From: Membranipora membranacea
Taxonomy: Eukaryota; Bryozoa; Gymnolaemata; Cheilostomatida; Membraniporidae
DNA length: 60,000 nucleotides
NCBI GenBank assembly: GCA_914767715.1
Contig: OU612065.1
Coordinates: forward strand, 33,234,001 to 33,294,000
Direction: 5' to 3'
Below the pieces are notes generated by a model. The model worked only from the letters and a program-made list of their open reading frames with translations. It was not told the origin of the DNA and ran no database searches. How positions within the stretch are numbered: position 1 is the first letter of the stretch; every line of letters begins with the position of its first letter. Below are positions 1,351-31,000 of this stretch, one piece after another. The position numbers were made by a program, and so were the translations under genes.

Positions 1351-1673
1351 GTTAATCCTGAAGACTGAACAAATATTAACGTAACCATGTATCTTTGATT
1401 CAGCTAGCCCAAGTTTCCGGAAAATTGGGCTAGATCACGTGGCCTTATGCAAATGTTCATGTTATGGTTACAAGCTATGGTTACTATGCAACTCATATAC
1501 AATGGATCATTTCTGAGGACATGCTCTCATGCATATAGTGCAAGTAGTATTAGTACTCTCATACACAATCTATAGTTGTGTGACAGAGTTTAGTAATATA
1601 GTAATTCTATATAGTAAAGAAGAAGCCTCTCACAGAGGAAATATGAGCAGCTGAAACATAGCGAGAAAGAAAC

Positions 1674-1691
1674 ATGACGACAAATGGGTGA
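1674..1691 (+). promoter_or_regulatory. Short upstream ORF overlapping the gene 1 start
   Basis: An ATG at 1674 opens a five-codon frame (MTTNG) that ends at 1689-1691, overlapping the gene 1 initiation codon at 1684 in another frame. The paralogous gene 2 leader has no such ATG just before its start. If the leader is transcribed this could damp translation of gene 1; that is inference. Confidence 0.4.
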
Positions 1692-4600
1692 CAGCTTATC
1701 AAAAGTATCTGCCCGGGATCAGCTGACATCGAGAGGTTCAGGACCGTCTAGCTATGCCACCGGGACAATGTCAGGCAGTCCAGCTCAAGGTGCTGGTGTA
1801 AGACCGCATACTCCAGAGAATCAAGGAGAGGCAACCGAACTAGCCTGCCTCACAAACGGCAGGGGTGAACAAATACCGCCAGATTACATTGCAAAATGGA
1901 AGTTTACCGACAGTAACAAGGAGAAAAGAATCAAAGAGATTGTCTATACTCTCAATCTTCTCAAATCTAAAAAGCCTTCTGAACTTGTGCTTAACTCTAA
2001 AAGCTATGAAAGATCTATATAGTAAGTACCAGCTTCTTATAGGCTTGTTTGTACAATAAGTCACAAACTTAGAATCATATAAAACAGTAGAAGATTGTGT
2101 GTACATACATCTTATGAGGGGAACTGTGTTTGATGATGGAATAAATCAGTCAGAATGCAGACATATTTGATACCCATTGTATTCAGAGGCCCGGACAAAT
2201 TTGATTTGTCATTATATTGGTAGTATATCTGTCAGACAATTTAATAAAGTCAGCCAGATGAGGTTATCTTATGCATAGTTGTGTTTCAAGGTTATGATAG
2301 GTTTCTATCCTGAGTGTGTATGCCAATGTCATCTTGGACACCCAGTCTATGGGTTCCAGCACTGACCTCAGAAGCTATTTGAGATGTGTAAGGTAGCTCC
2401 TGGCAACCTGGGTAGCCTTATTTTACACACATATGTGTATCTACTCGCAACATCAACTTTCAGGCCAACCTCAATAGCATATTTCTGTATTTCAGTTTAT
2501 TGTCACGTGGCCTGTATCGTACACACAATACTCATGCACACAACAGAGAACTTGTTGTTAGACTACTGCTAGACAATGGTGCAATGCGCCTTCTCACCAC
2601 ATACTGGGCTGCTCTTATTCAGGAGTTTGAAGCGAAGCGAAGCGCCGTTACTACACATGTGAGCGGCAACGGTGAACTATGGCAGCGTTACGGAGAGATA
2701 CCGGATAAACAGTACATAGTGGCAAGCTTGCAAAACTGCTACCACTTGATGGTAATATTTTGGAATGGGTCCGATCCAAAGAATTATCAAACTCTTAAAC
2801 AGATCTATGACACTTTAGGGCTCTTCCTGTTAGAAAATTTGGATAAATACCTCTACCCTATCACAAGCCAGGAAAACCATCCGCACTGCAAAATAGTCAT
2901 GGCATTCATTGGCACATTGCATAATTTAATCCATAAGTATGAGGAATGCATCGACGAGCTGAGATCTAAACGAGGACGAGCAATTCTCAGTCGCTATAGA
3001 AACGCAGGATCAGTTACGCTGCAGGTAAAAAGTATGCTTGCGTCAGCCTACCTGCTGCAGGACCAGGACATTGATCAGGCAGAGGCCATCATTGAGCTTG
3101 AAGAAGTCGATATAAAGTTCATGATTACAGCCCTTGATGATGCATTGAAAGGTGAAAAGTATTACTCCAAAAAGTATGGCTACAATGTCGAGGAACTGAT
3201 CTCAGGAATAAGTAACATTGCAGCAATAGACTACAACAAATCGCGCCTTGTTGATGCTGGGATCCTACCAGTCTGTGTGAGGGCCATGAAGACATCGGAC
3301 CTGACTATCCAACAGGTAGCTGCCAGCGGTGTGTGGGTGTTAACGTTTGAAGGGAAAAACAAGAGCAGAATAATCTCCCAGCCAGATCTGCTGAGTGGTA
3401 AGTAGCTACAAAAAATACATAAGTACATTTGTATAGATTTTAGGTAAGATCAGTTTTGTTCCACATAAATTCTCAAACGATACTCAGCTTTTTCATAAAA
3501 TTTATATTGTCCTTATAATACTGTAGAGCTTAGAAAGCTATCACAGAGTGGAAACAAGAATGTAAATAAGGCAGCTGAGGGCGCTTTGTGGAAGCTTGAA
3601 GGAGAAGAAAAGTACCAGAGAAGTAAAGAAAGTGCTACTACCGACGGAAGTGAGTAATAACGTAAGGGAAAATTCGTCTGAGTTTCAAACAAATACCAAC
3701 TCTATTTACAAGAGGGTATCTTTCCTGTTGAAGGGACGTTTTACAAACACCACACCCATCAACAACAAACAACAAGCCTGCTGATCAAACACTTCCTGTT
3801 GCCTGATCAGAAAATCAGTAAATTGCTTCAAATAATTACCAACAATCGTTCCATGACATAAGCATTACATATCTAAATGAGTAGTTGGCGAAATCGCATT
3901 TGAAGCCAGCCAGAAATTTGATATGATAACAGCAGCCTTTCTGATTTTAGGCGAGAAACAGCTGCCGCATATAATGATCAGCTACCAGTGGGATGTACAA
4001 CCTCAAGTGTTTAAGATAAGAGATAGATTAAAGCAGGCCGGATATAATGTCTGGATCGATGTGGAACAGATGCGGAAAAGTGAGATTAACTTATACGTGT
4101 AATTTTGAGCCATGATCACTCTACGGAACCATAAAAACTGTGCAGTAGCTGACCGTAACAAGCAACAATTTTTTCAAAGCCAAACACTAGTTTATCGGCC
4201 AGCATCCTTGTATTGCTGCTGAGATTGCTCCATTTCCACAGAATACACTGGTGGTGTAATGCAATAATCCATGTCAGGATACCATCACTGTAACACGTCT
4301 ATAATAAGTCCAATGCATAGTCTTGCTTGCTCACAAGTTAGATTAAGCAGCCAAAATGTTGACGCTATGTTGAGTCGGAAGCGGGAGATGTTCAACCAAA
4401 TATGCAGAGGGCACATTAAAATTAAATAATGGATTTCGTTACTGGCTATCCCTTGAAAATCTGGCATAATAATTGACAGCCTATTCTAGACTGCAGCTGC
4501 AAAGTATTCACAGTTTGACCAGTTCATCTACCATGTTTCTTGGTGACATAATTCCGATTCCAATCACATTATTCAGGTGATAACACACTGGTAGCAAGGG

Positions 4601-5186
4601 CTCAAGCTGTGGAGAATGCATGGGTGGTGGTCCCTGTTCTAACAGATAAGTACAAACACAGCAATCCATGCAGGCAAGGTATGAAATTGGCAATGTTGAT
4701 TGCTTCATGGTTGAATTTGAATAACGATTTATTATAAAACCTCATTCGGCAAAAACAGTTTATATTGGTAAGGTTTTTGAACTGCAAGTAACTGCAACTA
4801 CAGACAATGGAAATTTAAAATTGATTGAGTCAAATTAGAGTGCTGATGAAATAAAACTTACACATTCAGGTTCAAATTTAATTGCCACTCTAGTGTCAAA
4901 GTCAAAGAGCCAAATTTTGCATATGTATCCTTTGTAGAGGCCTCCTACGCTAATAGTCTGAGTAAAAGGTTGCTACCGATATGCCTGCAGCCGAAATACA
5001 GGCCAGATGGATGGCTTGCTTTCCTGCTAGGGGGCGCTTTCCATTACGATCTTTATGAGCATCAAAACTTTGAAAGAAAGCTCCGGGAGTTTTTATCAGC
5101 ACTTGGGAAAGTGGCAATGATAGTCTCCGCACCAACATCTGGTGAGTGTCACTTTTCTGTTGATTTCATTGTATCAAAATAATGTC

Positions 5187-5232
<46 letters not shown>

Positions 5233-8200
5233 GTATATACATATTAATATATGCTTATATTGGCATAAATCTCATTTGTTTAAAATGTTTTTCAGAAAAA
5301 GCCAAAAACAACCTTTAAAGAAACAAAGCAATAAATAGTTAAACAAAAATGGAGTAAAACAATATAGACTGTGTTTTGAATGTATAAATGTTTTGGTATG
5401 TCATTGAGAGTGGAAGCGATCTACTCAGGTTGGGTGTGTCAGCAATGAACTAAAGGTTTAGTTCATTGGTGTCAGATCAACTAACAAACCCAACATGAGC
5501 AGATAACTCGACACAATAACAAACCAAAACCAATCAGCCAATCAAATCAAAACCAAAACACAAGCACATGGGTCCATTTATTCAGGTACAATAGTAGTGA
5601 TACATGAGTAGATAACACCACAGAAGCAATATCCAACATCACCATTAATACAGACAAGGCCTCATTTTGGCCTGAATCCCAGGCTACCCGATCGCAAGAG
5701 AAGACGATATTTAATATCGGCTGCTCAAGACAAGCTTTGTTTCCCCCCCCCCACCCCACTGAACAAAGCTTGTCAAGACAGGCTAGTTTATTCTGATCTC
5801 ACCAATGCCTTTCAAATGGGCATTGTGTAGCAAATCTATGGTGTGCAAGCGTCAAAAATTTTCAGCTCACTTGTAAAATTGTAGTCAAATAATAATCGGA
5901 GAAGTTGCAAATATGCTAAAGTATCTCAGTCATAAATTCCGAGTCATGGTTAAAATTCGCATTCTATTGGCTCAGTCAAGGTTATGGAAGTTTTGGAGGC
6001 GAGTTGTTCTAGTCGGGTAGGAATTGGATATTGTGTACTGCGTATTTGGTTCCTTGTGATCAGCCAAGAGTATGAAAGTCCTTTTGCCTTCTTCCTTAAT
6101 TATGATTGCCTGTATTATTTTCTCTAGCTGCTGCCTTACCCTCATCTCAATCTGACGATGTGCCAGCACCTGCAGATTCACGGTCAGCACAGATAGATGA
6201 TATTATGAGGGTGGTCAACTCAGATACGGCACCAATCGATCTACCATTCGCTCAGTCCGCCACGAACCACAGAACACAGGTACTATAATCATGTTTCATG
6301 TAGTCATAAGTCTTAGCCTTCTTTGCAGTGAGGGTTTTTTCCCTCTAGAGTACAGGTACTGGGACCCATGGCACTCAAGCCAGGCCCCATACCCTTGCCC
6401 GCCGGTAGTCAGGCTCCTCATTTTATTGAAGAGGTAGAGGGGGATCTATTTGAAAAACACACAGTGGACCTCCGGTATTTTTAGTCCCGTTCTGCAAGAA
6501 CTGCTAGGATGAATGGCACGCCAGTACCAAAACAATAATGAATGCTGTCCCTCGGAATTAAGCCTGGACTTTACTGATCAAAAGTCCGCACACTTAAACA
6601 TCAGACCACTCCTGATTCCTGTAGTCTGCTGTAATCATTATTATTGTGGTTCAAATGAACTCGCTGTCACGTCGCAAAAGCTAAACTTGAACTTGGTTGC
6701 ATTACCTACTTGACTTGAAATTAATTTTGCAAGCGATTTTCTATATAATATATATAACCAACCTGAGAAGAATAATTTTAAAATATTATTCCAGGAGGTG
6801 TATCCGATGTCAGAGACCCGTGGGAGAGCCCTCATCATATCTAACAAGTACAACAACTCCAGACTGGGCTCAGAATATGACTATGATAACATGAAGAGAA
6901 TGCTGAACAAGCTAGGATTTATCACTGTTGGTGATCACAAAGACTACAGTGCCCAGGTAAACTCAGTAGTAGCCTCATCTCACATTAGGTCAATTCTCAT
7001 ACAAAGCAGAAATCCCCATTTTCACAGCGCAATGCACCTATTACCAATATACGTATATACGTATTATCCATATACAGCGCAGTTAATTTAATTCAAACCT
7101 CTGGGGACCACGAAAACTTGTTCTAATTAAGCAGAGTTTGAATTGAGTGAGATTAGAATGCATTGAGACTGGCTGAAGGGACCAATCTTCCTTTGAATTA
7201 TATAGTTTGAATTAACCAGCTTGCACTGTATTTTAGATAGAATATATATACATTGAATTTTAGCCATACTTCTTGAATTGAGTGCAAACATTAGGTGTAG
7301 TCATATCTTTTGAAATATGATTACTCAGGAGATGATTCAGGAGATCCACAAAGAGACACAACTGGTTAATCCACAGACAGGAGAATCTGTTCACGCCCAA
7401 CTCGGGTCATTTGTCTTAGTGGTTACAAGCCATGGCCATGACGGAACAGTAGGTGGATCAGACGGTAAACAGATCAGGATCATAGATATGATCGGCCTGC
7501 TGTCTCCTAAGAACTTCCCTGCTATGAGGAGGAAGCCGAAGATTGTAATAATCCAGGCTTGTGCTGGCAGTAAGTTAAGTCCAAAGGTGTCTCTCTTCTA
7601 CATTGTTGATAATTTTTCTTTTAATTAACCAGACAAATAAGTGGACCAAGCGCGTAAGTGTTAAGGGTTCTTGACTCAAGTTGAACAAGAGCAAGAGTTC
7701 ACAATCAACATCCAACAGTGGTAGTTTCGTAGCTCGATCATGGATAAGGGTGGTTTTGAGACTTGTCTTCTACTCGCGCAACTGCAAAAACTGCTCACCT
7801 GTCCTCAACTCAAGTTTGTTGACATTTCTCTATATTTCAGGTCAGAGGGAAATGCTGCTAACTGACACAACTCTTCCCGCTCCAGCCAATCAGAACCAGC
7901 CTGGAGTAGATACTGTGCATCAGCAGCCTCCTGTTTATGATGATGACTTAGATGATGCTGATGCTGCAGATATCTCTACTGCTGACTTCATAATCATGCA
8001 GTCAAGCTTTGAATGTAAGTTAACTAGGTTTATTACAGACTGGGTGGTATAAGAGCTCAGAAGGCTGCAAGTAAATTACGCTTTCAGCCATCTAAGCAGC
8101 GGACTAGTTCCAATCCCAAAAATATCAGGTGCAAATGAACCAAAAGACTTCCGGCCTATAGCCCTCACATCTGTGTTAGCTAAATGTTTAGAACGACTGA

Positions 8201-9981
8201 TATCCCCTTACATCTCAGAAAAAAATCACAGATGAGAACTAGTTTGCCTACAAACGCAGCAGAGGTACTGACAACACTCTGATGATGCTCATTGATAATG
8301 TATCACAACATCTTGATCTTAACGCTCAAAACTACACCCGAGCAGTCTTCATTGACTTCAGTGGTGCATTTAATACCATCGACAGCACACTCATGATCGA
8401 GAAACTGAAAGATAAGAACATCAACTCTATCATCACTACCTGGATTTCCAGCTTTCTCACGCACAGAACTCAAGCGGTAACCTCTGGTGGCGATGTATCA
8501 ACATCAGCAGAAACATCAACTGGCTCGCCACAGGGCTGCATGCTCTCTCCGATTCTGTTTACCCTTTATGTTGAGTCAATGAACACATCTCAAACAAACT
8601 TCTCCATACTTAAATACGCTGACGATACCACCATCCTAGAATATATAAATAGAGGGGAAAACTCCAACATGCAAGCTAAAGTAAACAACATCGCCTCCTG
8701 GTGTGATGAAAACTATCTTATCATCAACTTCGAGCAAAACCAAAGAACTGCTCTTTACTAATCAACGGCACCAACCTAACCCAGGCCCACTCACCATCAA
8801 ACAGATTAACATTGAACGAGTCGAGAAATATAAATACCTCGGCACAATAGCACCTCGAAACTTAAATTCACAGATAGTACTCATCTAGTAACAGATAAAC
8901 TCAGCAAACGCCTTTATATTATGAAGAGACTAGCAAAACTAGGTGTCAGCCCTAAGACCATCAAGTTAGCCTACGAGGCATTCATTGAAAGTGTCATATC
9001 CTTTCATTAAACGGATTATTTAAGTAGACATTTTAGATTTTTATTTTATATTTTTATTTTACAACAGAACGCTCAACAAACAAATGATTTTATCACCAAT
9101 GATACCATACAATATACATATATACATTGACCAAATTTTGTTTTCACTTTCATAAAACCAATTTATTCCTGAGAGTGTATTCACAATAGTTGATAGGAAC
9201 AGCTCGATGTGGGAAAATGAGCAATGTTGTAATAATTATGTTTCAACAAAACAGTTGATTCTTTGTCAGCCAAACACTCAGATTTAATGAGACTGTAATT
9301 TTGTTTTTGTTTCAGCTTTCTCCTCCCCTCGACGACCTAGCATAGGTTCACCATTCATCAGAACACTAGTCACGGTCTTCTACAAATATGCTCATCAGCT
9401 TCATATGGAGGAACTGGCAGCAACTGTAAGCTTTGCTACATCCATTATTATGTACATACTAGATATAAATTTCATACATGGTAAATTAATGGTGGTGTCG
9501 GTATCTTTGTTTGGTTAATTTGATGATAAATTTGCAGAATGGACGGAGGCATATCCATATTTCCAAAATGTAAGAGTGAAATCATCTGTGAATTAATTCT
9601 TTCAAATAATTATTTAAGATCTCATATGATTATTTATAGATAAGACAGATGGTGGCGAAGATCGGAGCACAGAGAACAGAAGCTCTGCTCAGAACCGGAA
9701 CATATAACACAGTGAGAGCTCATGTCGCCTCTATGCCTCAGACTAGATGTACATTTCTTACTGAGAAGCTCTATCTACAACCTGGAGTTAATATTAGGAC
9801 AGAGAACCACCCTGACTCACTGACAAATCCTGTGTTACCCAATCCAACAGGTACTAGGATTCATCCTGAACCTGGTGAGCGATTGTTCAGTAATATTTAT
9901 AAATTCATCCAATTAGTTTCTGTCGTTTTCTCATTTCGTCATTTGAAGGAATTTGTTCCTCCAGTCCAATGTGGTGAGTGA
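1684..9981 (+). CDS. ARM-TIR-caspase fusion protein (gene 1), 12 exons, ~992 aa
   Basis: Exons: 1684-2021, 2496-3397, 3527-3649, 3951-4079, 4577-4678, 4938-5141, 6128-6279, 6795-6956, 7329-7569, 7841-8014, 9316-9425, 9640-9981. All introns are GT-AG and phases agree throughout. Residues 1-112 are a low-complexity leader; 113-454 ARM-like helices; 455-599 TIR (ISYQW, then WIDVEQM with Glu493 at the position of the SARM1 catalytic Glu, and YRPDGWL); 600-650 linker; 651-784 caspase p20 (YPMSETRGRALIISN, SHGHDG with His739, QACAG with Cys782); 785-832 linker rich in Asp; 833-992 p10 with Arg848 at the S1-pocket position. Only entry phase 1 is open in the exon at 6128, and that is the phase the TIR exon leaves. 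Likely role: a TIR NADase sensor/executor coupled to a cysteine protease (inference). The 3' end is uncertain: a donor at 9875 could join an exon at 10179-10282 instead. A separate caspase gene with its own promoter in 5142-6127 is the main alternative. Confidence 0.78.
5190..5226. repeat. AT dinucleotide microsatellite at the paralogy breakpoint
   Basis: A run of about 18 AT units follows the gene 1 TIR exon 6 donor by about 50 bp. Homology with the gene 2 and decayed-copy introns stops here. It is a plausible breakpoint for the join of the caspase exons to the TIR exons. Confidence 0.85.
5722..5787. repeat. Short foldback element with poly-C centre (copy 1)
   Basis: Arms CAAGACAAGCTTTGTT and AACAAAGCTTGTCAAGACA flank a C-rich loop with a run of ten or more C. 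A related hairpin with the same AAGCTTTGTT core and the same outer AGCCTG/CAGGCT ends lies at 57616-57697, so this looks like a small dispersed family. Sits in the intron between the TIR and caspase parts of gene 1. Confidence 0.6.
8100..9008 (+). mobile_element. Dead non-LTR retrotransposon fragment (reverse transcriptase), in caspase intron
   Basis: Coding for a LINE reverse transcriptase of the Jockey/CR1/L2-like group: KDFRPIALTSVLAKCLERL, then FIDFSGAFNTID, SPQGCMLSPILFTLY and YADDT (8615-8629), then the YKYLGT thumb region. It is broken: a frameshift and an in-frame TAG near 8230-8250, a shift near 8738, and stops at 8761, 8888 and about 9008. No endonuclease, ORF1 or 3' tail is visible, so it is truncated at both ends. 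It lies inside intron 8015-9315 of gene 1 in the sense orientation, between the p20/linker exons and the first p10 exon; the host splice sites remain intact and in phase. Confidence 0.88.
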
Positions 9982-11873: not shown

Positions 11874-12725
11874 ATGAAAAACCCATTAAAATCAGCATAT
11901 ACAAGCAAGATATGCTGAGGAATGTGTCATCTGACTCTAAATCATGGAATGTTCGACAGGCAGTTGAAGGTATGAGTCCTGTTATCCCTCATAACCATGT
12001 TTCATCATAAACAATCACACCTAATGATTGCAATTCCATTTTTTACTGATCACTCTCTAATTTCAAGTGACCATTATTTATGCATGCACATGTTATAGAG
12101 GATATCCTATTGGACATGGTAAATAAAGTTGTCGCTCAACAACCTGCACAGGATGAGACGGATGTCATTGAATCAGCACTAGATTCCCTCAATTGTCAAC
12201 CTGATGGTCCTCATGTCCCTGGCATTGAAAGCCGAATGTCCCTGTCAGAAAAGAGTGTGTACCCGGATGTTTGGACTCCTGATCAATGGACAGCCTTCAA
12301 GTCAAAACACAACTGGCTCATCGCTAAAGGCGGATGCCTTGGATGTTCTATATGCCTCAGATGGTATGAGTATGTTGCGTGCCAATGGTAAGTGGGTTTC
12401 CTGTGAAATAACTTACAATGGCAGCACCAGGCCGTCGCAGTTGAAATCTCTCAGAAAAAAAAATTCTGACCATGCAAGTTCCTCTTCTATGACAAAGCTG
12501 TTTCGATAAAGAGGGAAGCAGACGAGAAAAAGCGAGAACGGGCTGTTGACCAAATAGATAGTAGAGCATTTTCTACAACGGGGAAATGCTTCGTCACAGC
12601 ATATAAAATGGCGAAGTCAGCGAGGCCATTTTTAGACTATGAAGAAGATATGCTGATGATAAATGGTGTGGATCTTGGCGGAATATTGCACAGCGACAGT
12701 TCTGAAAAAGAAATATTTGAGCCTT
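11874..12725 (+). pseudogene. hAT-derived (KIAA1586/ZNF862-like) gene fragment, frame-broken
   Basis: Conceptual pieces resemble the N-terminal zinc-binding region of hAT-derived KIAA1586-like proteins: WTPDQWTAFKSKHNWLIAKG followed by GCLGCSIC, then QLKSLRKK, and downstream AYKMAKSARPF with NGVDLGGILHS. A first exon (about 11874-11969, donor GTATGA) joins in phase 1 to sequence starting at 12100. The frame shifts near 12345 and again near 12480, and nothing of the transposase catalytic core follows. Right after 12725 the sequence becomes the duplicated intron of the TIR gene family, so the fragment is cut by, or borders, the segmental duplication. Confidence 0.6.
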
Positions 12726-13074
12726 GATCATTCTAACTCCTAAGGAAAAAAAATATATATACAAAATGCATTTTGTTGCTGCTTGTTCTAAGCAACACTC
12801 ATTCTCGAAACAAAACATTTGTTTATCCAGGAAGGGTTGGATACCCACCCTCTCTGGATTATCGGCCAGCATCCTTGTATTGGGAGTTGTCCTACCGAAT
12901 ACGCAAAAGGCACTTAGCATGTAAATTGATATTTTCGTTATTAATGACCAATACTTGCTATAATTAAGCGGAACCATTGGCACCTTATCTTGAACTGCAG
13001 CTGCATAAGATGTAAGGTGAGACCACTTCATGAACCATGTTTCTTGGTGACATAATTCCAATCACATTATTCAG

Positions 13075-14550
13075 GTGATAACACACTGGGAGCGATGGCT
13101 CAAGCTGTGGAGAATGCCTCGGTGGTAGTCCCTGTTCTAACAGAGAAGTACAAACACAGTAATCCATGCAGGCAAGGTATGAAATATGGCAATGTTGATT
13201 GCTTCATGGTTGAATTTGAGTAACGATTTATTATAAAACCTCATTCGGCAAAAACAGTTTATATTGGTAAGGTTTTTGAACTGCAAGTAACTGCAACTAC
13301 AGACAATGGAAATTTAAAATTGATTGAGTCAAATTAGGGTGTTGATGAAATAAAACTTACACATTCAGGTTCAAATTTAATTGCCACTCTAGTGTCAAAG
13401 TCAAAGAGCCAAATTTTGCATATGTATCCTTTGTAGAGGCCTCCTACGCTAATAGTCTGAGTAAAAGGTTGCTACCGATATGCCTGCAGCCGAAATACAG
13501 GCCAGATGGATGGCTTGCTCTCCTGCTAGGGGGCGCTTTTCATTACGATCTTTATGAGCATCAAGACTTTGAAAACAACTTCAGGAGTTTTTATCAGCAC
13601 TTGGGAATGAGGCAAAGTTAGCATCCGCACCGACATCTGGTGAGTGTAAAATTTCTGTTGATTTCATTTTATTGAAATATCATCATCGTCTTGACTTAGT
13701 TGAGAAAACAAATATATAGGAACTTGCTCCCATATGTCACATATTGTCGAATTTGGTCCTCAAATGACGCTTTTTTTTTTACCGAAGCCATATTAACACC
13801 CATACAACATATTCTAGTTCAATGAAATCATTTGCTTATGTTTACAGGGGATGTCCACGTAAGAAGATCAAAAGTTGTCCCGCCACAGCCTTTGATTAGA
13901 ACGATAGACAGGCCTGCTCCTACAGGAAGTGTAACCCGATCACAGTACTCAGTTGATTTATGCCGGAAACGAGTCCTCTTATAGTGGCTAATCTAATCTA
14001 ATAATGATTGGCACAGCAAAACTATCCAAGGTTAGGAATCCACCGGAAAGTTTTTTACCTGCAGCCAATATTCCATACTCTCCAAGCCGTCTTTCCTCTC
14101 ATCCCAGTTTAGAGTTTATCGCTGCTGATGTTGCGACATCCCACACATTTTTTAGGTTGAAACCATTGTCGAGATATTATTTAATCCATATATAATCTTA
14201 CATAAACACCTATTCCTATGAAAACAATGAAATGTAAATACACAACCTTACTTACTTTACAAACTCAGTCCCATCAATATTGGCAAAGCTATATAATAAT
14301 ATCACAGGTCAACAAGTTGCCTTTGACTATTTGTTGTTGTATACTTATCAAGACAACCTCTATAAATAAATAAAATTAAATAAATAACTATATGTAATTA
14401 TTTTCTCTGTTAGCTTTTCTGGAGTTAATGGTAAGCTGCTGGCAGAACTAGCCACCATCAGAGCCACAGCACCAGATACATACTGAGAACAAGATGTCTA
14501 TGGTAGACTTACTCAAGTTTAACACCTCTCTTAGTGAGCTTACATAGCAA
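13075..14550 (+). pseudogene. Decayed TIR-SAM copy of the ARM-TIR family
   Basis: Exon 5 (13075-13176, 102 nt) is intact. Exon 6 (13437-13639) has 203 nt against 204 in both intact genes: one A is missing in the AAAACAAACTTC tract, shifting the frame. The first SAM exon, from about 13849, lost about 75 bp and with it helix 1 (the GWSEQQVSDW part) and the donor. The second SAM exon, from about 14415, lost about 17 bp, producing TGA right after the Asp-Thr-Tyr codons. No ARM exons and no exon with the catalytic Glu are present. Non-functional as a TIR-SAM protein. Confidence 0.88.
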
Positions 14551-17193: not shown

Positions 17194-17347
17194 TTTTCCT
17201 AATATGGATGGAGTTTTGCTGGCAGAGCTCGTTGCCTTTAGATTCACATGCGCTGATACATATTATGAAATAATGAAACAGGATCATGATATACCGATGA
17301 TTGATCTGTTGAGACTTAACGCTGCCTACAGGGCGCTGCTCAGGTGA
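17194..17347 (+). CDS. Lone divergent SAM-domain terminal exon
   Basis: After the acceptor TTCTTACATTGCAG the phase-2 frame reads FPNMDGVLLAELVAFRFT and continues to the stop TGA at 17345-17347. This aligns along its whole length with the last exon of gene 2 (FSGVDGKLLAELATIRAT and onward), with the same entry phase and nearly the same length (154 against 151 nt), but at much lower identity than the A/B/C copies. No upstream SAM half-exon in matching phase is visible nearby. It is either the remains of an older family member or an alternative 3' exon for one of the TIR genes. Confidence 0.6.
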
Positions 17348-18263: not shown

Positions 18264-18798
18264 TCTATACAGGAAAAAAACAATCACTGGCAATTAGAAT
18301 TTTGATATTTTACGCTAAAAGAAAAGTTTTCTTAATTTGAATAGGGCTTCTTGCTCAAATTGTCAAATTTCTGATTAACAGCAAATGTAATTTACAGTGC
18401 TTAGCTGGTGCTAAGTTTTATTCCGAATTGTCGGCATGACCGCAGAAGACTGAAGACTGAGCAAATATTAACTTAACCCACTGATATTATACCTTGATAT
18501 AGATTGTGTCCTTAATTTACCTATTATTAATCATTGAGGGTGGTCCAATGTGAACTGATATAAAATAATCAATAACACAGGCTATGGTTACTATGCAACT
18601 CATACACAATGGACAATATCTGAGGACATGCTTTCATGAATATAGTTAAAGCAGTGTTAGTAGTTTAGTACTCTCGACACACAATCTATAGTTATGTGAC
18701 AGTTAAGTCAAATAAGTTTGTTATAGATAGGAAGAAAACACTCACTGAGAAAGTATTTATGAGCGACTGAAACACTGAAAAAAACTAACAGGACAGCA

Positions 18799-21700
18799 AT
18801 GGGAGACAGCTTACCAAAAGTATCTGCTCGGGATCAGTTGACATCGAGAGGTTCAGGACCGCCTAGCTACTCCACAGGAACAATGTCAGGCAGTCCAGCT
18901 CAAGGTGCTGGTGTAAGACCGCATCCTCCAGAGAATAAAGGAGAGGCAACCGAGCTAGCCTGCCTCACAAACGGCAGGGGGGAGCAAATACCGCCAGATT
19001 ACATTGCAAAATGGAAGTTTACCGACAGTAACAAGGAGAAAAGAATCAAAGAGATTATTTATACTCTCAATCTTCTCAAATCTAAAAAGCCTGCTGAACT
19101 TGTGCTTAATTCTAAAAGCTTTGAAAGATCTATCCAGTAAGTTGATTGCCTAGCCTTCATACCATCGTTGGTTGTTGTAAAAGTTTAATTTTATAGAGGC
19201 TTGTGCCAAACTTAGCAAACAGGGGAAGATTGATTATACCAATATCATTTTAATCACCAAGCCTATGATCTTCAGCATTGATTATAGCAACCTGGGTAGC
19301 CTAATCTGATATACTCATGGTTATGGTGACCAATAATCAACCACTCAGGTCAACCTCAATAGCATATTTCTGTATTTCAGTTTATTGTCACGTGGCCTGT
19401 ATCGAACACACAATACTCATGCACACAACAGAGAACTTGTTGTTAGACTACTGCTAGACAATGGTGCAATGCGCCTTCTCACCACATACTGGGCGGCTCT
19501 CATTCAGGAGTTTGAAGCTCAGCGTAGCACTGTAACAACTCATGTGAGCGGCAACGGTGAACTATGGCAGCGTTATGGAGAGATGCCAGATAAACAGTAC
19601 ATAGCAGCTAGTTTGCAAAACTGCTACCACTTGATGGTAGTATTTTGGAATGGATCTGATCCAAAGAACTATCAAACCTTAAAACAGATCTATGACACGT
19701 TAGGGCTCTTCCTGTTAGAAAATTTGGATAAATACCTCTACCCTGTCACAAGCCAGGATAACCACCCTCAATACAAAATAGTTAAGGCAATCTTTGGCAC
19801 ACTACATAATTTGTGCCATAAGTATGAAGAATGCATCGATGAGCTGAGATCTAAACGAGGACTAGCAATTCTCAGTCACTATAGAAACACAGGGTCAGTT
19901 ACATTGCAGGTGAAAAGTATGCTTGCGTCAGCTTATCTGCTACAGGACCAGGACATTGATCAGGCAGAGGCCATCATTGAGCTTGAAGAATTGGACATTA
20001 AGTTCATGATTACAGCCCTTGATGATGCATTGAAAGGTGAAAAGTATTACTCCAAAAAGTATGGCTACAATGTCGAGGAACTGATCTCAGGAATAAGTAA
20101 CATTGCCGCAATAGACTGCAACAAATCACGCCTTGTTGATGCCGGGATCCTGCCAGTCTATGTGAGAGCCATGAAGACATCGGACCTGACTATCCAACAG
20201 GAAGCTGCCAGCGGGGTGTGGGTATTAACGTTCGAGGAGAAAAACAAGAGCAGAATCATCTCCCAGCCAGACTTACTAAGTGGTACTTTTTTTTGGATCG
20301 GAGAGCAATGTGTGGTGTTGGTGAAATGAATTCTTACAGTTTCTATGTAAAATATGTGACTAGGAGCATATCAAAAATTTAAATCAGTCATGACATAAGA
20401 GAGCAGTATGCAGCAAGTTTCGAGCTCACATAGATTTTACTAAAGAATAAATAGCGTTGCAGCAAGAAGATTTTCTATTTTATTCTTGGATAGTAAGTCT
20501 TTTCATACAAGTCTTTTGTTCTTATAATACTGTAGAACTTAGAAAGCTATCTCAGAGTGAAAACAAAGATGTAAAGAAGGCAGCAGAGGGCGCTTTGTGG
20601 AAGCTTGAAGGAGAAGAAAAGTACCAGAGAAGTAAACAAAGCGCTGCTGCCGACGGAAGTGAGTAACAACGAAAGGGAAAATCCATCTGAGATTCAAACA
20701 CATACCAACTTTAACTTGTTAAGTTAAGTTTAAGTTGTTCAAGTGACCAATCACAAGCACCACACCCATCAACAAAAATCAACGAAACCAGCTGATCAAA
20801 TGCTGCTTGTTCCAATTGCTGTCACTGATTAGAATATCAGTATGTCCCTAGAAATAATTACCATCAAACAGCTATACATATCTCAATGAGAAGTTGGCAA
20901 AATTGACGTTGAGTTGAGTTGAAATCAACAAGAAATATGATATGATAACTGCAGCCTTTCTGATTTTAGAAGAGAAACAGCTGCAGCATATAATGATCAG
21001 CTACCAGTGGGATGTACAGCCTCAAGTGTTTAAGATAAGAGATAGATTAAAGCAGGCCGGATATAATGTCTGGATCGATGTGGAACAGATGCGGAAAAGT
21101 GAGAATTAACTTATACGTGTGATTTTGAACCTTGATCACTCTAAATCCTACGGAAACATAAAAAATATATACGAAATGCATTTTGTGGCTGCTTGTTCTA
21201 AGCTACACTCATTCTCGAAACAAAACATTTGTTTATCCAGGAAGGGTTGGATACCCACCCTCCCTGGATTATCGGCCAGCATCCTTGCATTGTTGCCGAG
21301 ATTGTTCCATTTCCACAGAATACACTGGTGTATTGAGATAATCCATGTTACGATACCCTCACTGTAACACGTCTATAATAAGTCCTATGCATAGTCGTGT
21401 TCGCTCACAAGACAGAGTAAGCAACCGAAATTTGGGTGCTAATATTGACCCGGAATGGGGAGTTGTCCAACCAAATACGCAGAGGGCACATTACATACCC
21501 TACTGACCTTATGTTTTCGAGTGGTTTAATATTTCGTGGTTAGCGATGACAGAAACCGGGAATAATTAAAACTAGCTAAATACACACACTATATGTCAGG
21601 AGGCTGAATAGCTCAGTGAGTAGAGCGTCTGCCTTGTAAGCCCTTGAATATGGGAAGTTGCAGCTTCTAATCCATTAGAGGTTTGTTTTTTTAAAGTAGA

Positions 21701-23607
21701 ATACTACTTCTACTATAGAGGAGTTCTCCTCTCAATTTTGCTGGCCTGAGATCCGTGAATAATTAAGACTGGTGAAAAAGGTTGGAGTTGTGCCCTCCGT
21801 GAATTAGGAGCCCGTGAAATATTAAGGTCAGTAGGGTAATATAAATTAATATTTCCGTTACAAACGGCCAATACTAGGGAATTTAGCAAAATAATTGGCA
21901 CATGATCTTGGACTTCAGCTGCATAAGATGTAAAGTCAGACTACTTCATGAACCATGTTTCTTGGTGACATAATTCCAATCCCATTATTCAGGTGATAAC
22001 ACACTGGTAGCGATGGCTCAAGCTGTGGAGAATGCCTCGGTAGTGGTCCCTGTTCTAACAGAAAAGTACAAACACAGTGCTCCAAGCAGGCAAGGTATGA
22101 AATATACCCATATTGAAAAGCGGTTTATCACAAAGCCAAAGGTAACATTATTGCAGGTAGTAACTGCAACTGCGGACAGTGGAATTTGAAAATGTGTTTG
22201 AATTGAAGTGTTATCTTTGAGCAAACTCAATGGTAGAATTATAGTTTTCATAAAAACAAAACTTACACATTGAGGTGAAAAAATTTCGTTGCCAGTCTAA
22301 TGTTTAACAGAGCTTTTGCTTATATATAATTTGTAGAGGCCTCCTACGCTAATAGTCTGAGTAAAAGGTTGCTACCAATACGACTGCAGCCTAAATACAG
22401 GCCAGATGGATGGCTCGCTTTCCTGCTAGGGGGCGCTTTCCATTATGATCTTTATGAGCATCAAAACTTCGAAAACAAACTTCAGGAGTTTTTATCAGCA
22501 CTCGGGAACGAGGCAAAGCTAGCATCTGCACCGGTATCAGGTGAGTGTCATGGTTGGTCACTTTTCTGTTGATTTCATGTAGCAAAATAACAGCATTATC
22601 TTGACTTAGATGCAAAAACAAATAAATAGTGACTTGCTACCTGATGTCACATAGTCTCGAACTCGGTTTTCAAATGACATTATCTTTACTACCAAAGCAG
22701 TGTTAACAAACATACAGCATACACTAGTTACATGCTGACAATATTTTGCTGATGTTTACAGGCACTGGAATATATTATATTAATATCAATGTTTACAGGG
22801 GAAGTCCAGGTAAGGAGATCAGAAGTTGTCCCTCCTCAGCCTTTGATTAGAACGATAGACAGGCCAGCTCCTACAGGCAGCATATCCCGATCACAGTACT
22901 CAGGCTGGTCCGAGCAGCAAGTCTCTGATTGGATCAAACGCATCAATCTTCAGAAATACTCAAAACAGTGAGTGGTAAAGAGCAGTTGATTTATGCTGAA
23001 CAAGTCCTCTAATAGTGGCTCGGTTTTTCTAAATAATGTCGTTTAGAAATCACTGACACAGTAAAAAGTGTCCCAGGATAAATTCCAACCGTAAAGTGTT
23101 TTAGCTGAAGCCAATATTCCATACACTTGCAAGCTGTCTCTCCTCTCATCCCAATTTAGAGGACACCACGTCTAATATTGAGATATCCGACACATTTTCC
23201 AGGTTGAAACCGTTGACGTGATATTATTTAATCCATATACAATCTTACATAAACACCTGGTCCTATGAAAACCATGAAGTGTAAATACACATCCTCACTT
23301 AATTTACAAATACAATTCCTATCAAAATTCGCGGAGCTATATCATAAAAAGAACAGAGGTCAACAAGTTGCCTTTAACTATTTGTTATGCTATGTTATGT
23401 TATGTATACTTTCAAGCCAACCTCTATAAATTAATGTATTTATTTTCTATATTTAGCTTTTCTGGAGTTGATGGTAAGCTGCTGGCAGAACTAGCCACCA
23501 TCAGAGCCACAGCACCAGATACTTATTTTTCCATCATGAGAGATGAGAACAAGATGGCTATGGTAGACTTACTCAAGTTTAACTCCTCTCTTAGTGAGCT
23601 TACATAG
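18799..23607 (+). CDS. ARM-TIR-SAM protein (gene 2), 8 exons, ~705 aa
   Basis: Exons: 18799-19136, 19381-20282, 20536-20658, 20970-21098, 21993-22094, 22337-22540, 22799-22967, 23457-23607, phases consistent to the TAG at 23605-23607. Residues 1-112 leader; 113-454 ARM-like helices; 455-599 TIR with ISYQW, WIDVEQM (Glu493 aligned with the SARM1 catalytic Glu) and YRPDGWL; 600-633 Pro-rich linker; 634-705 SAM (GWSEQQVSDWIKRINL then FSGVDGKLLAEL). Likely cytosolic NADase-type signalling protein, with ARM restraining TIR and SAM mediating oligomers, by analogy with SARM1; the order (ARM-TIR-SAM rather than ARM-SAM-SAM-TIR) shows it is not a plain SARM1 orthologue. The exon 2 donor is weak (GTACTT; gene 1 has GTAAGT), so read-through would give an ARM-only protein. 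Convergent with srGAP. Confidence 0.87.
21498..21837. mobile_element. TA-flanked miniature inverted-repeat element in gene 2 intron 4
   Basis: CCCTACTGACCTTA at about 21501 is mirrored by TAAGGTCAGTAGGG ending at about 21836, each flanked by TA. The corresponding introns in gene 1 (about 4415) and in the decayed copy (about 12918) lack the block, giving two empty sites. TA target and short inverted ends fit the Tc1/mariner style. It contains a tRNA-like segment. Confidence 0.7.
21602..21680 (+). repeat. tRNA-like sequence (pseudo-tRNA or SINE head)
   Basis: GGCTGAATAGCTCAGTGAGTAG resembles a tRNA acceptor/D-arm with A box, and a TTGTAAG anticodon-loop-like segment follows. The T-arm region lacks a good GGTTCGAATCC B box, so this is not called as a functional tRNA. 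Confidence 0.45.
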
Positions 23608-25005: not shown

Positions 25006-28000
25006 CTAGGTTGAAGTTGGAGGAGGGATATTTCTTGGTAGTGATGTACTTTTGCTTGATGTTGTACTGTTAGTAGAATGCCGAGGCGATTGGTTATGCC
25101 TGGGAGAAGAAGAGCCTCCACTGGCATTGTATGAACGACTGAGCGAGCTTATCTTCTTCTTGATGGACCCACCGTCTCCATGGTTAGATGATAGAGTGCC
25201 TGTACCACTACAGATAAATGAATTCGGTTGTATGGGTTACAAGCTAAAACTATATTGACAATATCAAATAGTTTCATATCCGACAGACACAACAGACAAA
25301 TCAGTGGTTCTTTCCTACAGTGTATCTCATACAAGGACATCCAAGGGTAGATCAACTCAAATTGTTGCTTGGTTCTATTATATAATGTTGTCTCTGAAAA
25401 ACCCAAAGTATTACGTTTTGAGATACTCATAAACAAGGCCTATCACTCAAACTTAATGTTACATTTTTCGTTTCTGTCCTTTACCAGGTGGATGGTTTGG
25501 GCCAACGGGCCATGTTGGCGTGGTTCTGTGATCCAAAGGAATGTTTAGTTCTAAATGGTTAGGTTAGCAAGAAAACGAGCTGTGTTTAAAAAGAGAAATG
25601 TGATTTACTGATGGGAACAAAGCATCATGCAAGCTTCCTATTACTGTCACAAATTTTGTAAAAATAAAAGTAAAGACAATCTTTAGCTAAGACTTTAGCT
25701 AAGATTTTTATAGCCCTGACCAGCTGAGTAATGTGAAGTTAAAGATATGAGATAAAAGGTCACAATGTTTGTGACTCTGAAATTATGATGAATTTAGCGT
25801 CGCTTCGCGACTTAGAGAAGCAGTGGGCTGCAACTCCAAACGCAGCCAAAATGTATGCAAGTCAATATCTGCGAGTTCAAAGTAGACAAATGATATCCAA
25901 GTAAAAGTTGGTGAATATAAAAAACCTCGTTAAATTTACTGAAAGTTGTGTAAGCGTGATGATTAGATATTGTTAAACCACCCACACAAAACGTTACTCC
26001 AAAACTTTAAAACAAGTGAATGCACTATAACCATAAGCATATATATACTAAGTATACTATAAGTATTTATATGTTTATGACTATAACCAATCATGCAGCA
26101 AGAGGAATCGAAATGAAGAAATAATGCCACCCCTACAGTAGGTATGATAATGTTTACCAATTTCTATCAGAGCCCTTGACTGCAATTAGGAACACTGCTT
26201 AACAAGACCATCTTGCGACGAATTATTTAACTTGTTTCTAATGGCCTCCAATACGAAGAAAGGAGGACAAGTTTGTTTTGGTGCGAGGAAAATACTAATA
26301 GAATCATTCAACCAACACCGACTGAGTGCATCCACAGGACTACTGAAATACTTGCCGAGTAGTTATAGTTATAGGAGACTAAGTTTGATCCAGTTGGCCT
26401 GCATTCGGAATTGCTTCTCTTCCAACTGATCAATGGAGGGGGAGCAACTCTGAATGCACTCTGAATGCAGGTAAATTGTATCAAACTTGATCTATAGTTA
26501 AGTTATAGTGACACAATGAGTGAGTATCAGGCTTTTACACTGTGACGGTAAACTGAACAGAAAGCCTGAGGCCCTCTCCGTCTACCTACTGGGCTGTGAG
26601 GTCGGCGACCAGGGGTGCCTTAACCACCTGCCCAAGGAGCAAGGCTACAGGCTAACAGGTCAGTATACGGTAGTAGCTAGGATTTTATTATTATCACTGT
26701 CACATATACTTACTCAAATTGTACCTAAGCTTGATACACTGATACGACTCGTGCTACGGAAAACCAACATTCAGTTTTTGTAATCAGTTACTGACATGTA
26801 ACTTACTGTGAAAACGGACAATTTGTTTACACAGGTCTGAAAAATCACCGTTTGTTTATAAATGCCACATGTGCATATCATGCTTAATGTGAAAATAGTT
26901 AACAGCTTTTGTCTTATTGATGTCTGTGATGGCCATGAGAACTTACTTCAATCCCTATGCCAAATCAACCTACACTTCACAGATGCAATCATGGGTGGCT
27001 TAGGATTAGGGATATATTTCAAAGCTTGCCTATACTTTTGGTACTAAATGAAGACATAAATAGCCGGTACCATATCAACATGCTTTATGACAGTGAAGTG
27101 AGCACAATGTCAGAGTTATCCCCACATGAAATTAGTGAATGAGTAACACTGTCACCACGATAAGCAGTGAATGTCAGGGCAGCCTGTCATTGGTTGCTCT
27201 GCAAACCCAATGGTGGCGTCAAACAGCATTCTTTGGAAATCATTTAGACAAGAAATTTGTTCAATTTAAGTACAATCAATTCTTTATCACCATGTGTTCA
27301 AATTTTAAGAAACACCCAGTTACTAACCGTGCCCAATAAGATGGAAATATTGTTGCTCCTGGAATTGTGCCCCAATAGCTAACATGAGAGCAAATCCAAT
27401 GCAGTCCAATTAATCCATCTCTATGTAAATAGATATGAAGCCTTAGAACCTCACCTCTTTAGTTGAATATACTGGTCGGGTATGAGCCCCTCCTTCCCAT
27501 TACAAGCACCATCCCACCACTCTTCTGACTTTCTATGATACAGTAGAAGCATCTCTCCTGTTTTAAATGATAATTCTCGAGCTGTTCTACCCTCAAAGTC
27601 GTATACAGCTACGGCTTCTATAATCTCAGACTCTGTACGTATAAACACAAAATGAAAACATAAATAATATTATTATACTACTGTTTATCATATTAGGCAA
27701 GTCACTATAATTTTGATTTCTCAAACTATATTTTACATAGTTTTTTAACCTCAAGATACCATCAGGTGATTCAGAAACAGCTAATCCAACATTTTGAAAG
27801 GGCAACACAAACTTTAAAGAATAAATTCAAGCTTGCAGACATCCGTGGATGCATTAAAACGGCTTCACGTTTAAGGTAATGTCAAAGACCGATCCGAATA
27901 TCAACATATCATATACTGTTGGAAAGCTGCCGAGCTACTGAAAATGAATACCTGAACAAATACTTGATTCAATGGCGTTGTGTCATTTTAGGGAGGAAAG

Positions 28001-31000
28001 GAGGCAGAAAACGCTGTTTTTGTCAATTCAGATGGAGGAATCAAATTAATTGCAAGAAAACAAAACAGGTGGAATGTATACTTAGTGATTGCGTTCATCG
28101 TAAAATTTGATTTTCTTTGATATATGACTAGTATTAATTGACTTTTTACGTCACGCCATACAATGCAATTTTTTTGTGAAGCCATGAAAATATGTGAAAT
28201 TTCAATTATTTTTTCAGAACAGAACCTAGGCTTGAAACAAAATGAATTATGATTTTCTCTTAGAGTACACTTCAAATATCATACACATTGACTTTCAACA
28301 AATTAGCTTGCATATTGCTAAGACAGTAGACTCTCAAATACAGCTAATATTTTCGCAACTTTTGGATAACGTCAAATATGCTGTCCAAATGACCATTATT
28401 GTGGCCAAACAAAGTTTTTTTGAAAGTTCTCATATACGAAGCCGATTTCATTAACCATGGTGCACACAGGAAATGCCAACAGAATTTTTCACTGCATCTT
28501 CATTTTTCTTGAATTTAACGCAAAAGAATGCCCAAAAACACCTCAAAAATAGCTGTTTTTTACATTCTTTTGCGTTTTATTCAAGTGAAATGAAAATGCA
28601 GTGAAAAATTTTGTTGGCATTTCCTGTGTTCAAAGTTAATGAAAGCGGCTTCGTATGTGAGAACTTTCAAAAAAGCTTTGTTTGGCCACAATGATGGTCA
28701 TTTGGAAAGCATATTTGACGTTTTGCAAAAGTGGCGAAAATATTAGCTGTATTCAAGAGTCTACTGTCTTAGCAATATGCAAGCTAATTTGTTGAAAGTC
28801 AATGTGTATGATATTTGAAGTGTACTCTAGGAGAAAATCATAATTAATTTTGTTTAGAGCCCATGATCTGTTCTGAATTAATGATTGAAATTTCACATAT
28901 TTTCACGGTTTCACAAAAAAAAGCATTGTATGGCGTGACGTAAAAAGTCAATTTAGACTAGTCATATATCAAAGAAAATCAAATTTTACGATGAGCGCAA
29001 TCTCTACGTATACATTCCACCTGTTTTGAAATTTCTTGCAATTAATTTGACTCCTCCATCTGTATTGACAAAAACAGCGTTTTCTGCCTCATTTCCTTCC
29101 TAAAATGACACTACGTCATTCATTTTCAGTAGCTCGGCAGCTTTCCAACAGTATATGATATATTGATATTCGGATCGGTCTTTGACATTACCTTAAAAAA
29201 GGCAAATATAAACTGCAGAAATGGTGTTCTAAAGTGTAAGTGTCATTTTTAAAATCACGATACAATGTTAATTTCCATTCATGACCCCTACAATCCCCTC
29301 AATAACAAGATGATCTGAGATGTACTTACCTTCATCTTCACTGTGTTCATCATCAGTGTTGTCTGCATTGCTGCTGTGCCTGTAAAAGAATTTTAGGTCA
29401 TCAGTATATAAATCACATTATAAATCAGCGCAATCATAAATAATATAGAGGCCCTTAGTGGTCTGACAAAAGAAAATTTAGAGAACTAGAACCCATTCAT
29501 CGACAATTTTGTTAACTCTTTGTAAGTCGTACAAAGATTCACCAGGATTGACTTTATTCCTACTTCATTAGGAGTTTTGTAAAATTTTAACCTCTCATAA
29601 CATCTTTTACTCCCAAGAAACATTCAATTTAGCAACAATGCATTTAAAGCATTAGGATTTTTTAATACGCATATATCATTCACAAATTGCCATGTATCTA
29701 TAGCGGGTGATTATCTTACCCCGTATCTCCTAGTACTCTCTTATATTGAGGGCCGGGCGGATCATCGGCAGAAAATATTACATCCCAGTTATTAATCAGT
29801 AACTTGACGATGTCATTCACGTGATTTGTATACACAACCTGCAAAAAATAAAAAAGGTAGAATTTAATTAATCAAATTGATATTTTTCATAATTAAAATA
29901 GATGGGAGTTATCCCCCTATGTATCAGGAGTGGGTAACTCGTTATTACCATCAAAATCACAGCACATCCTAACTGTCAGGGTTGATAAATCACAAAATTC
30001 AGAGCTTACATGTTCCTTGCCTTCTGGTTTGGCCAGTTGGGTCAATAATACTTATCTAGTCTGTATTTACTGGTCACAGAGTCAGGTATAAGTAACAGAG
30101 AAAGGGCGAAGCTTACCTGGTCCTGTTTTTCTGATATAAGTAATACAGTAAGGGCGAGGCTTACCTGGTCCTTGCCATCTGGTATAGGCAGTAGAGCTGG
30201 ACCGAAGCAGACTGCCAGGTTGTATGCGTACATCAGATTCTCGTCGCTGTACTGTGATACGTGATTTAGAAAAGCGAAGAGATATCTCATTATAACTATT
30301 CTCGTCTTCGATAATGTGTATATTAGCTGCTTCATTTTACCATAGCACTCCTCATCACCCAATCCTTTATTGAAATGTAACACATATACATAGGTACAAT
30401 AAGCGATCAAGCTAACGATCGAAAAAACACAGCTTCAGACACCAGGCAGAATTTTAAAAGAATAGAATAATTTGATATCACCTGGACTGAATGCAGCCTT
30501 ACACCATAACCACTTTGAAAGTATGAGGCTGAAAAACACACCTCTTGCGTTATCCAGATGAAACATGATTGCATAGAAGAGTTAAATAAATATGATCCAG
30601 TTGTGGTACTTACGACTTGCACTGACGAAATCATCAAACATATACGAGGGAAATATTGGCTCCTCTAATTCTCTGAAGAAGCATTTTAAGACTCCAGCGA
30701 TAGAGTTTATAGAGTTTGCGTCTGCTAAGTCAGCAAGTGGATCCTCACCTGCAATAAAATCACAGCAGTTTTAAATGGAGTGCCTAGGAATATTCAAAAG
30801 ATAAATCAACCATATCGAAATCATGCCAGGTGGTGATCACAACCAAAGATACTAGAAGAACTCATACTATCACACACAATGTGAGTGAGAGTAGTGCTAG
30901 CCTAATCCAGTCTGCATGACAGCAAGTTTACCAACTTAACTTGAGGTTGGTTACTTGAGCCACATGTAAGGACATAAATCCAAATGCAATCACACAGACT

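Follow-up and report, generated by a model that had tools for sequence, protein, structure and literature searches.

A candidate ARM-TIR-caspase gene in a rearranged tandem array of the bryozoan Membranipora membranacea

Introduction

SARM1 and TIR-1 share the domain order ARM-SAM-SAM-TIR and cleave nicotinamide adenine dinucleotide (NAD+), acting as NADases. The ARM part of SARM1 is described as holding the TIR domain back, and cleavage of the ARM domain by a separate caspase-3, after D314, as freeing it (PMC12846840; this and the other papers are cited here from excerpts), such that caspases and SARM1-type TIR enzymes appear as cell-death arms linked in trans in mammals. A trans link of the same two partners is also described in bacteria, where type IV Thoeris encodes a TIR protein and a caspase-like protease as two genes in one operon, coupled by N7-cyclic ADP-ribose (N7-cADPR) (PMC12847820); 'TIR-caspase' additionally occurs as a bacterial signalling term in a reference title within PMC13232231. 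Here we describe a stretch of 60,000 nucleotides from the bryozoan Membranipora membranacea (assembly GCA_914767715.1, contig OU612065.1, positions 33,234,001 to 33,294,000; hereafter the window), in which a candidate gene, copy A, would carry ARM repeats, a TIR domain and a complete caspase in one chain, and a tandem neighbour, copy B, reads as an ARM-TIR-SAM gene.

The locus resembles SARM1 in that an N-terminal ARM part precedes a TIR domain with an aligned catalytic Glu, and in the SAM domain of copy B. The two SAM domains between ARM and TIR are, however, absent from both copies, copy A being without SAM and copy B having one after the TIR. By its domain order, copy B is not a SARM1 and is better regarded as SARM1-like, with the SAM after the TIR. 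Whereas the caspase that acts on SARM1 does so in trans, that of copy A would belong to the same chain. The coupling of a TIR enzyme to a caspase-like protease likewise recalls type IV Thoeris, but differs from it if the two parts of copy A are fused.

Results

The best join found for the ARM, TIR and caspase pieces was a model of 12 exons on the plus strand (1684-9981), with a conceptual product of 992 amino acids followed by a stop codon. All 11 introns have GT...AG borders and the exon phases agree throughout, bearing out the reading frame proposed in an earlier note on this DNA. The frames that the note had given for the critical stretch were likewise confirmed: the last TIR exon leaves in phase 1 and enters the single open forward frame of a candidate linker exon (6128-6279), which leaves in phase 0, and the following caspase exon is entered in phase 0. 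Both other forward frames of that caspase exon are interrupted by stops.

The caspase part matched Peptidase_C14 over the complete profile (1-233 of 233; Pfam E = 6.2e-32) and contained a catalytic dyad of His739 (SHG) and Cys782 (QACAG). Comparison of this region with solved caspases returned 177 distinct sequences at E ≤ 0.001, caspase-1 being the best (E = 2.9e-15) among the 60 of the 177 listed. The alignment with caspase-1 (8wra) extended across both catalytic motifs (His and Cys) and the S1 arginine, pairing PRRP with WRHP and RLGSE with RTGAE; the arginines for Asp specificity are present at the positions that we take to line the S1 pocket. The complete caspase claimed in the earlier note, with both catalytic residues and the S1 arginine, was thus recovered, and protease activity is predicted from the complete domain and its catalytic residues. 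The TIR domain matched TIR_2 at residues 462-581 (Pfam E = 2.9e-18), and its similarity to SARM1 was weak (best E = 0.028 among seven matches up to E = 1). Within this weak match, Glu532, whose codon is split between exons 5 and 6, aligned with the SARM1 Glu pointed out by the note, which we take to be the catalytic Glu642 by its presumed numbering. A SARM1 E642K variant is named as NADase-inactive (PMC12846840). The one aligned Glu suggests that the TIR of copy A may be an NADase, and of the note's proposal that NAD+ cleavage and proteolysis are linked in cis, the domains and catalytic residues stand, whereas the occurrence of both activities in one protein is a prediction.

Upstream of the TIR domain, a single stretch exceeded the Pfam cut-off for Arm (residues 360-396, E = 2.8e-5), and residues 355-446 of copy B matched Vac8 (best E = 3.7e-8). 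The extent of the ARM array is uncertain, as an AlphaFold model of the rest of the ARM exon was poor (predicted local distance difference test 40.7, two sequences) and was not used. The copy A product gave no Pfam match to SAM, and its C-terminal extension after the caspase domain gave no Pfam match. The chain contains 11 Asp-Gly/Ser/Ala steps, including those at 453 (ATTD/G) between ARM and TIR, at 616 in the TIR-caspase linker, and at 823 and 825 in the caspase interdomain linker; steps of this kind are frequent and are no proof by themselves.

The decisive feature for whether the TIR joins the caspase is the intron 5142-6127 (986 nucleotides), which also holds a palindromic repeat resembling a miniature inverted-repeat transposable element (5372-5549, 66% identical to its own reverse complement). 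Splice sites were scored with matrices trained on copies A and B (18 donors and 18 acceptors, minus the tested sites); because the copies are paralogues these training sites are non-independent, and they include the exon borders of the model itself. The null stretches used for the coding score and for the splice and phase fit are mutually overlapping and include other genes of the window. The TIR donor at 5141 scored 9.67, ranking 28th among 3312 GT sites on the plus strand, and is the same phase-1 site that copy B joins to SAM. Use by copy A of the SAM exons of a degenerate further copy, relic A2, was rejected because both exons are broken, and no SAM match was found between 5142 and 12715; the TIR donor of copy A would therefore serve a non-SAM exon. 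The coding score of the linker exon lay in the top 2.5% of 475 open stretches, GC content rises stepwise at its acceptor (0.36 before, 0.49 after), and a Pfam search with the exon up to E = 1 returned nothing. Codon 27 of its 51 is the sole in-frame Met; of the 26 codons that precede it, the first 25 were scored and fell in the top 3% of 2132, and the fusion is favoured because the linker is coding-like upstream of this only Met. We discarded, as the likeliest reading, a start of the caspase at a new first coding exon within the intron, since the 19 candidates were poor, the best being 16 nucleotides long with a five-residue reading and a donor score of 2.85. The tandem gene, copy B, strengthens the case, as the same phase-1 TIR donor would lead in copy A to a caspase in the place of SAM. 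On the sequence evidence, we consider a transcript joining 5141 to 6128, and hence an ARM-TIR-caspase fusion, to have somewhat better than even chances.

Several observations weigh against this fusion. An equally good open exon of 60-300 nucleotides leading from phase 1 to phase 0 occurred in 34 of 86 segments elsewhere in the window (4 of 86 when at least 150 nucleotides were required), which rules out phase agreement alone as proof of the join; an excess over chance holds for the domains but not for the phase argument by itself. Within the intron the highest-scoring acceptor is 5296 (9.81) rather than 6128 (4.92), and acceptors as good as the latter are expected 2.3 times per 986 nucleotides. 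The exon opened by 5296 reads EKAKNNL-stop, yielding ARM-TIR only, and an AATAAA lies at 5330. Further downstream, the linker donor at 6279 (2.94) and the caspase acceptor at 7329 (-3.63) are weak. A TA repeat (about 5187-5250) lies in the intron at the point at which similarity to the sister copies breaks off, and the tract 4679-5082 of copy A differs from the matching part of 12940-13690 in relic A2 at 9 of 403 sites; both are sites prone to assembly error. In favour of the fusion, the ARM-TIR frame of copy A is open and constrained relative to copy B, with nonsynonymous (dN) and synonymous (dS) divergence from copy B of 0.043 and 0.260 over 599 codons (dN/dS near 0.17), but because this ratio cannot be split with two sequences, constraint on copy A after the rearrangement is not demonstrated. 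Nine of the 15 changes placed on the lineage of copy A in exons 5 and 6 fall in residue-changing codons, which does not indicate strong recent constraint on its TIR. The rearranged, repeat-rich state of the locus is in itself a reason for caution.

The alternative that survives best is that of two tandem genes, in which a shortened ARM-TIR gene, spliced from 5141 to 5296 and polyadenylated behind the AATAAA at 5330, is followed by an independent short-prodomain caspase whose start is either the Met of exon 6128-6279 or an exon further upstream that was not seen. The AATAAA begins 12 nucleotides past the stop of the shortened gene, and such a signal (AATAAA or ATTAAA within 60 nucleotides) accompanies 9 of the 146 acceptors in the window that score at least 4.9; a start at Met codon 27 would moreover leave a prodomain of 25 residues, a size typical of effector caspases. 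The strong acceptor at 5296 is nonetheless not unusual, since 34 acceptors as strong occur on the plus strand of the window and 0.56 would be expected per intron of 986 nucleotides. Together with the coding-like character of the linker ahead of its Met and the poor candidate first coding exons, this leads us to regard two separate genes as possible but rather doubtful. Alternative splicing, with ARM-TIR produced via 5296 and ARM-TIR-caspase by skipping of that exon, could draw on the fact that both acceptors are readable from one phase-1 donor; being the union of two joins, each predicted from sequence, it seems unlikely. It overlaps with the fusion, and the likelihoods of the readings need not sum to one. 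An assembly artefact, in which the ARM-TIR and caspase parts were misjoined either at the TA repeat or within the tract nearly identical to relic A2, would suit both the loss of homology at the repeat and the contrast between that tract and the stretch before exon 5 (19/99 differences), but is very improbable given that the window contains no N and that gene conversion between neighbours accounts equally for the tract.

Comparison of the window with itself identified a fragmented second occurrence of 1470-5182 at 18577-22590. Exons 1-6 are equal in length between copies A and B, and the proteins of the two ARM exons are 93% identical. The TIR of copy B leads in phase 1 into two SAM exons with a SAM_1 match (E = 5.8e-6; 27.0 bits, cut-off 23). 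Relic A2 is homologous to copy B from just downstream of exon 4 of the latter; its exon 6 is one base short compared with those of A and B, its SAM exons have suffered losses, and no ARM exons were found beside it. A lone second half of a SAM domain, between relic A2 and copy B, gave no Pfam match up to E = 1. By their sequence, these two elements are taken as the remains of further ARM-TIR-SAM copies. The caspase part was found once in the window (tblastn of the copy A model, E up to 0.01). Most simply, the locus would derive from a tandem ARM-TIR-SAM array, one member of which lost the SAM exons and now carries a caspase in that position.

Along their alignment, copy A and relic A2 differ at 19/99, 8/102, 3/259, 6/144, 9/59 and 9/47 sites in successive segments. 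Before exon 5, A2 differs from B at 8/99 sites and from A at 19/99, whereas after exon 6, A differs from B at 4/46 and from A2 at 9/47. Because the nearest partner switches between these positions, no single history fits A, A2 and B, and a recent simple duplication of A and A2 was rejected in favour of gene conversion or an assembly chimera. The mosaic of differences is accordingly read as a mark of later exchange, or of an assembly fault.

The coordinates of all features are collected in Table 1. The reverse-transcriptase fragment within an intron of copy A is probably derived from an element without long terminal repeats (non-LTR). Elsewhere in the window, the Pre-PUA and SUI1 matches (43968-51170) may form one gene, which we presume to be eIF2D-like.

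Table 1. Coordinates of copy A, its sister copies and other features of the window.
Feature	Position	Strand	Remarks
Copy A, exons 1-3	1684-2021, 2496-3397, 3527-3649	+	N-terminal region and ARM repeats
Copy A, exons 4-6	3951-4079, 4577-4678, 4938-5141	+	TIR domain, TIR_2 match
Copy A, candidate linker exon	6128-6279	+	Phase 1 in, phase 0 out; Asp/Ser/Pro-rich
Copy A, caspase exons	6795-6956, 7329-7569, 7841-8014, 9316-9425, 9640-9981	+	Peptidase_C14, then C-terminal extension
Copy A, intron	8015-9315	+	Holds reverse-transcriptase fragment 8243-8761 (RVT_1, 2.6e-19)
Relic A2	12716-14544	+	TIR and broken SAM together span 12976-14544; TIR exons 5 and 6 at about 13075-13639; degenerate SAM exons 13847-13951, 14403-14544
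Lone SAM second half	17195-17338		tblastn match to copy B, E = 7e-11
Copy B	18799-23607	+	Open ARM-TIR-SAM gene, 705 amino acids, 8 exons, phases in order
Copy B, exons	18799-19136, 19381-20282, 20536-20658, 20970-21098, 21993-22094, 22337-22540, 22799-22967, 23457-23607	+
Large palindrome	27870-29197		88% identical to its own reverse complement
RhoGAP, two pieces	30042-30434, 30902-31279	-
Weaker palindrome	43047-43546		71% identical to its own reverse complement
Pre-PUA	43968-44255	+
SUI1	50862-51170	+

Discussion

Copy A may represent a chimeric immune or cell-death gene, created by tandem duplication and rearrangement that left a phase-1 TIR donor facing a linker and a complete caspase rather than SAM exons. 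In the working that we propose, the ARM part would keep the TIR quiet, like its counterpart in SARM1, and sense a trigger, after which TIR-TIR assembly would gather the attached caspases and activate them by proximity. TIR domains assemble, and initiator-type caspases are activated by being brought together, as by death-fold prodomains, so that TIR assembly would be expected to switch on the protease. The active caspase could then cut the Asp-rich linker and possibly the hinge between ARM and TIR at residue 453, and the latter cut would release the TIR for NAD+ consumption, in a way similar to that described for caspase-3 cleavage of SARM1 after D314. This site is not special to the fusion, because copy B also has Asp-Gly there. 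We infer the transcript, both enzyme activities and the order of these events alike. The proposal that a TIR NADase under ARM control acts as assembly prodomain for a caspase on the same chain, that it arose by exchange of SAM for caspase in a tandem array, and that it ties NAD+ loss to proteolysis is a tentative one, with chances that we place somewhat below even.

We group the locus with immune or death proteins built by domain shuffling, among which it would be a striking case if the transcript exists. If the fusion is real, joining in cis of two enzymes otherwise linked in trans would provide a natural experiment on which enzyme drives which, with the ARM-TIR-SAM gene next door as a built-in comparison. 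It would also exemplify the use of a TIR as a caspase prodomain, which among the excerpted sources is otherwise met only as an engineered chain (PMC13403374). Even as two genes, the locus would illustrate that rearrangement of a tandem array can place a caspase behind a TIR.

A literature search that covered few subscription papers returned no natural animal TIR-caspase protein, which does not imply absence from print. Among prokaryote genomes and viral contigs, pattern searches for relatives of the caspase gave 27 matches in the former and 3 in the latter, and those for relatives of the ARM exon gave 43 in prokaryote genomes, none of which was confirmed; since the collections hold prokaryote genomes and viral contigs, these misses are uninformative about animals.

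Initiator caspases with CARD, DED or Death prodomains offer a parallel in layout, a complete caspase standing behind an assembly domain and a linker, but copy A has a TIR in the position of the prodomain. The combination of ARM fold and TIR is shared with ARM-TIR proteins of Aplysia (11 according to the table, 10 according to the text; PMC9334734) and with choanoflagellates, in which ARM is associated with TIR (PMC6040629); the excerpts of these two papers mention no caspase on them. In amphioxus, TNFR-caspase (cDNA-supported), LRR-caspase and TIR-SAM proteins are described (PMC2575513), resembling the present locus in the direct fusion of a sensor to a caspase and in the pairing of TIR with SAM; no TIR-caspase is among the combinations named in the excerpt. 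Acquisition of a caspase by an immune protein is further suggested by an RLR of the brachiopod Lingula that carries a caspase domain (PMC8998645) and by the entry CASc in the key of an NLR figure for the sponge Dysidea avara (PMC12909245), although the partner in these excerpts is of RLR or NLR type and not a TIR. A further counterpart is an engineered MyD88-TIR-caspase-8 protein, which in cells converted TLR4 signalling to caspase-3/7 activity (PMC13403374). Like copy A as modelled, it unites TIR and caspase in one chain, but it is, as excerpted, man-made, uses the TIR of MyD88 and is without ARM. By analogy, this engineered protein demonstrates that a TIR-caspase chain can work.

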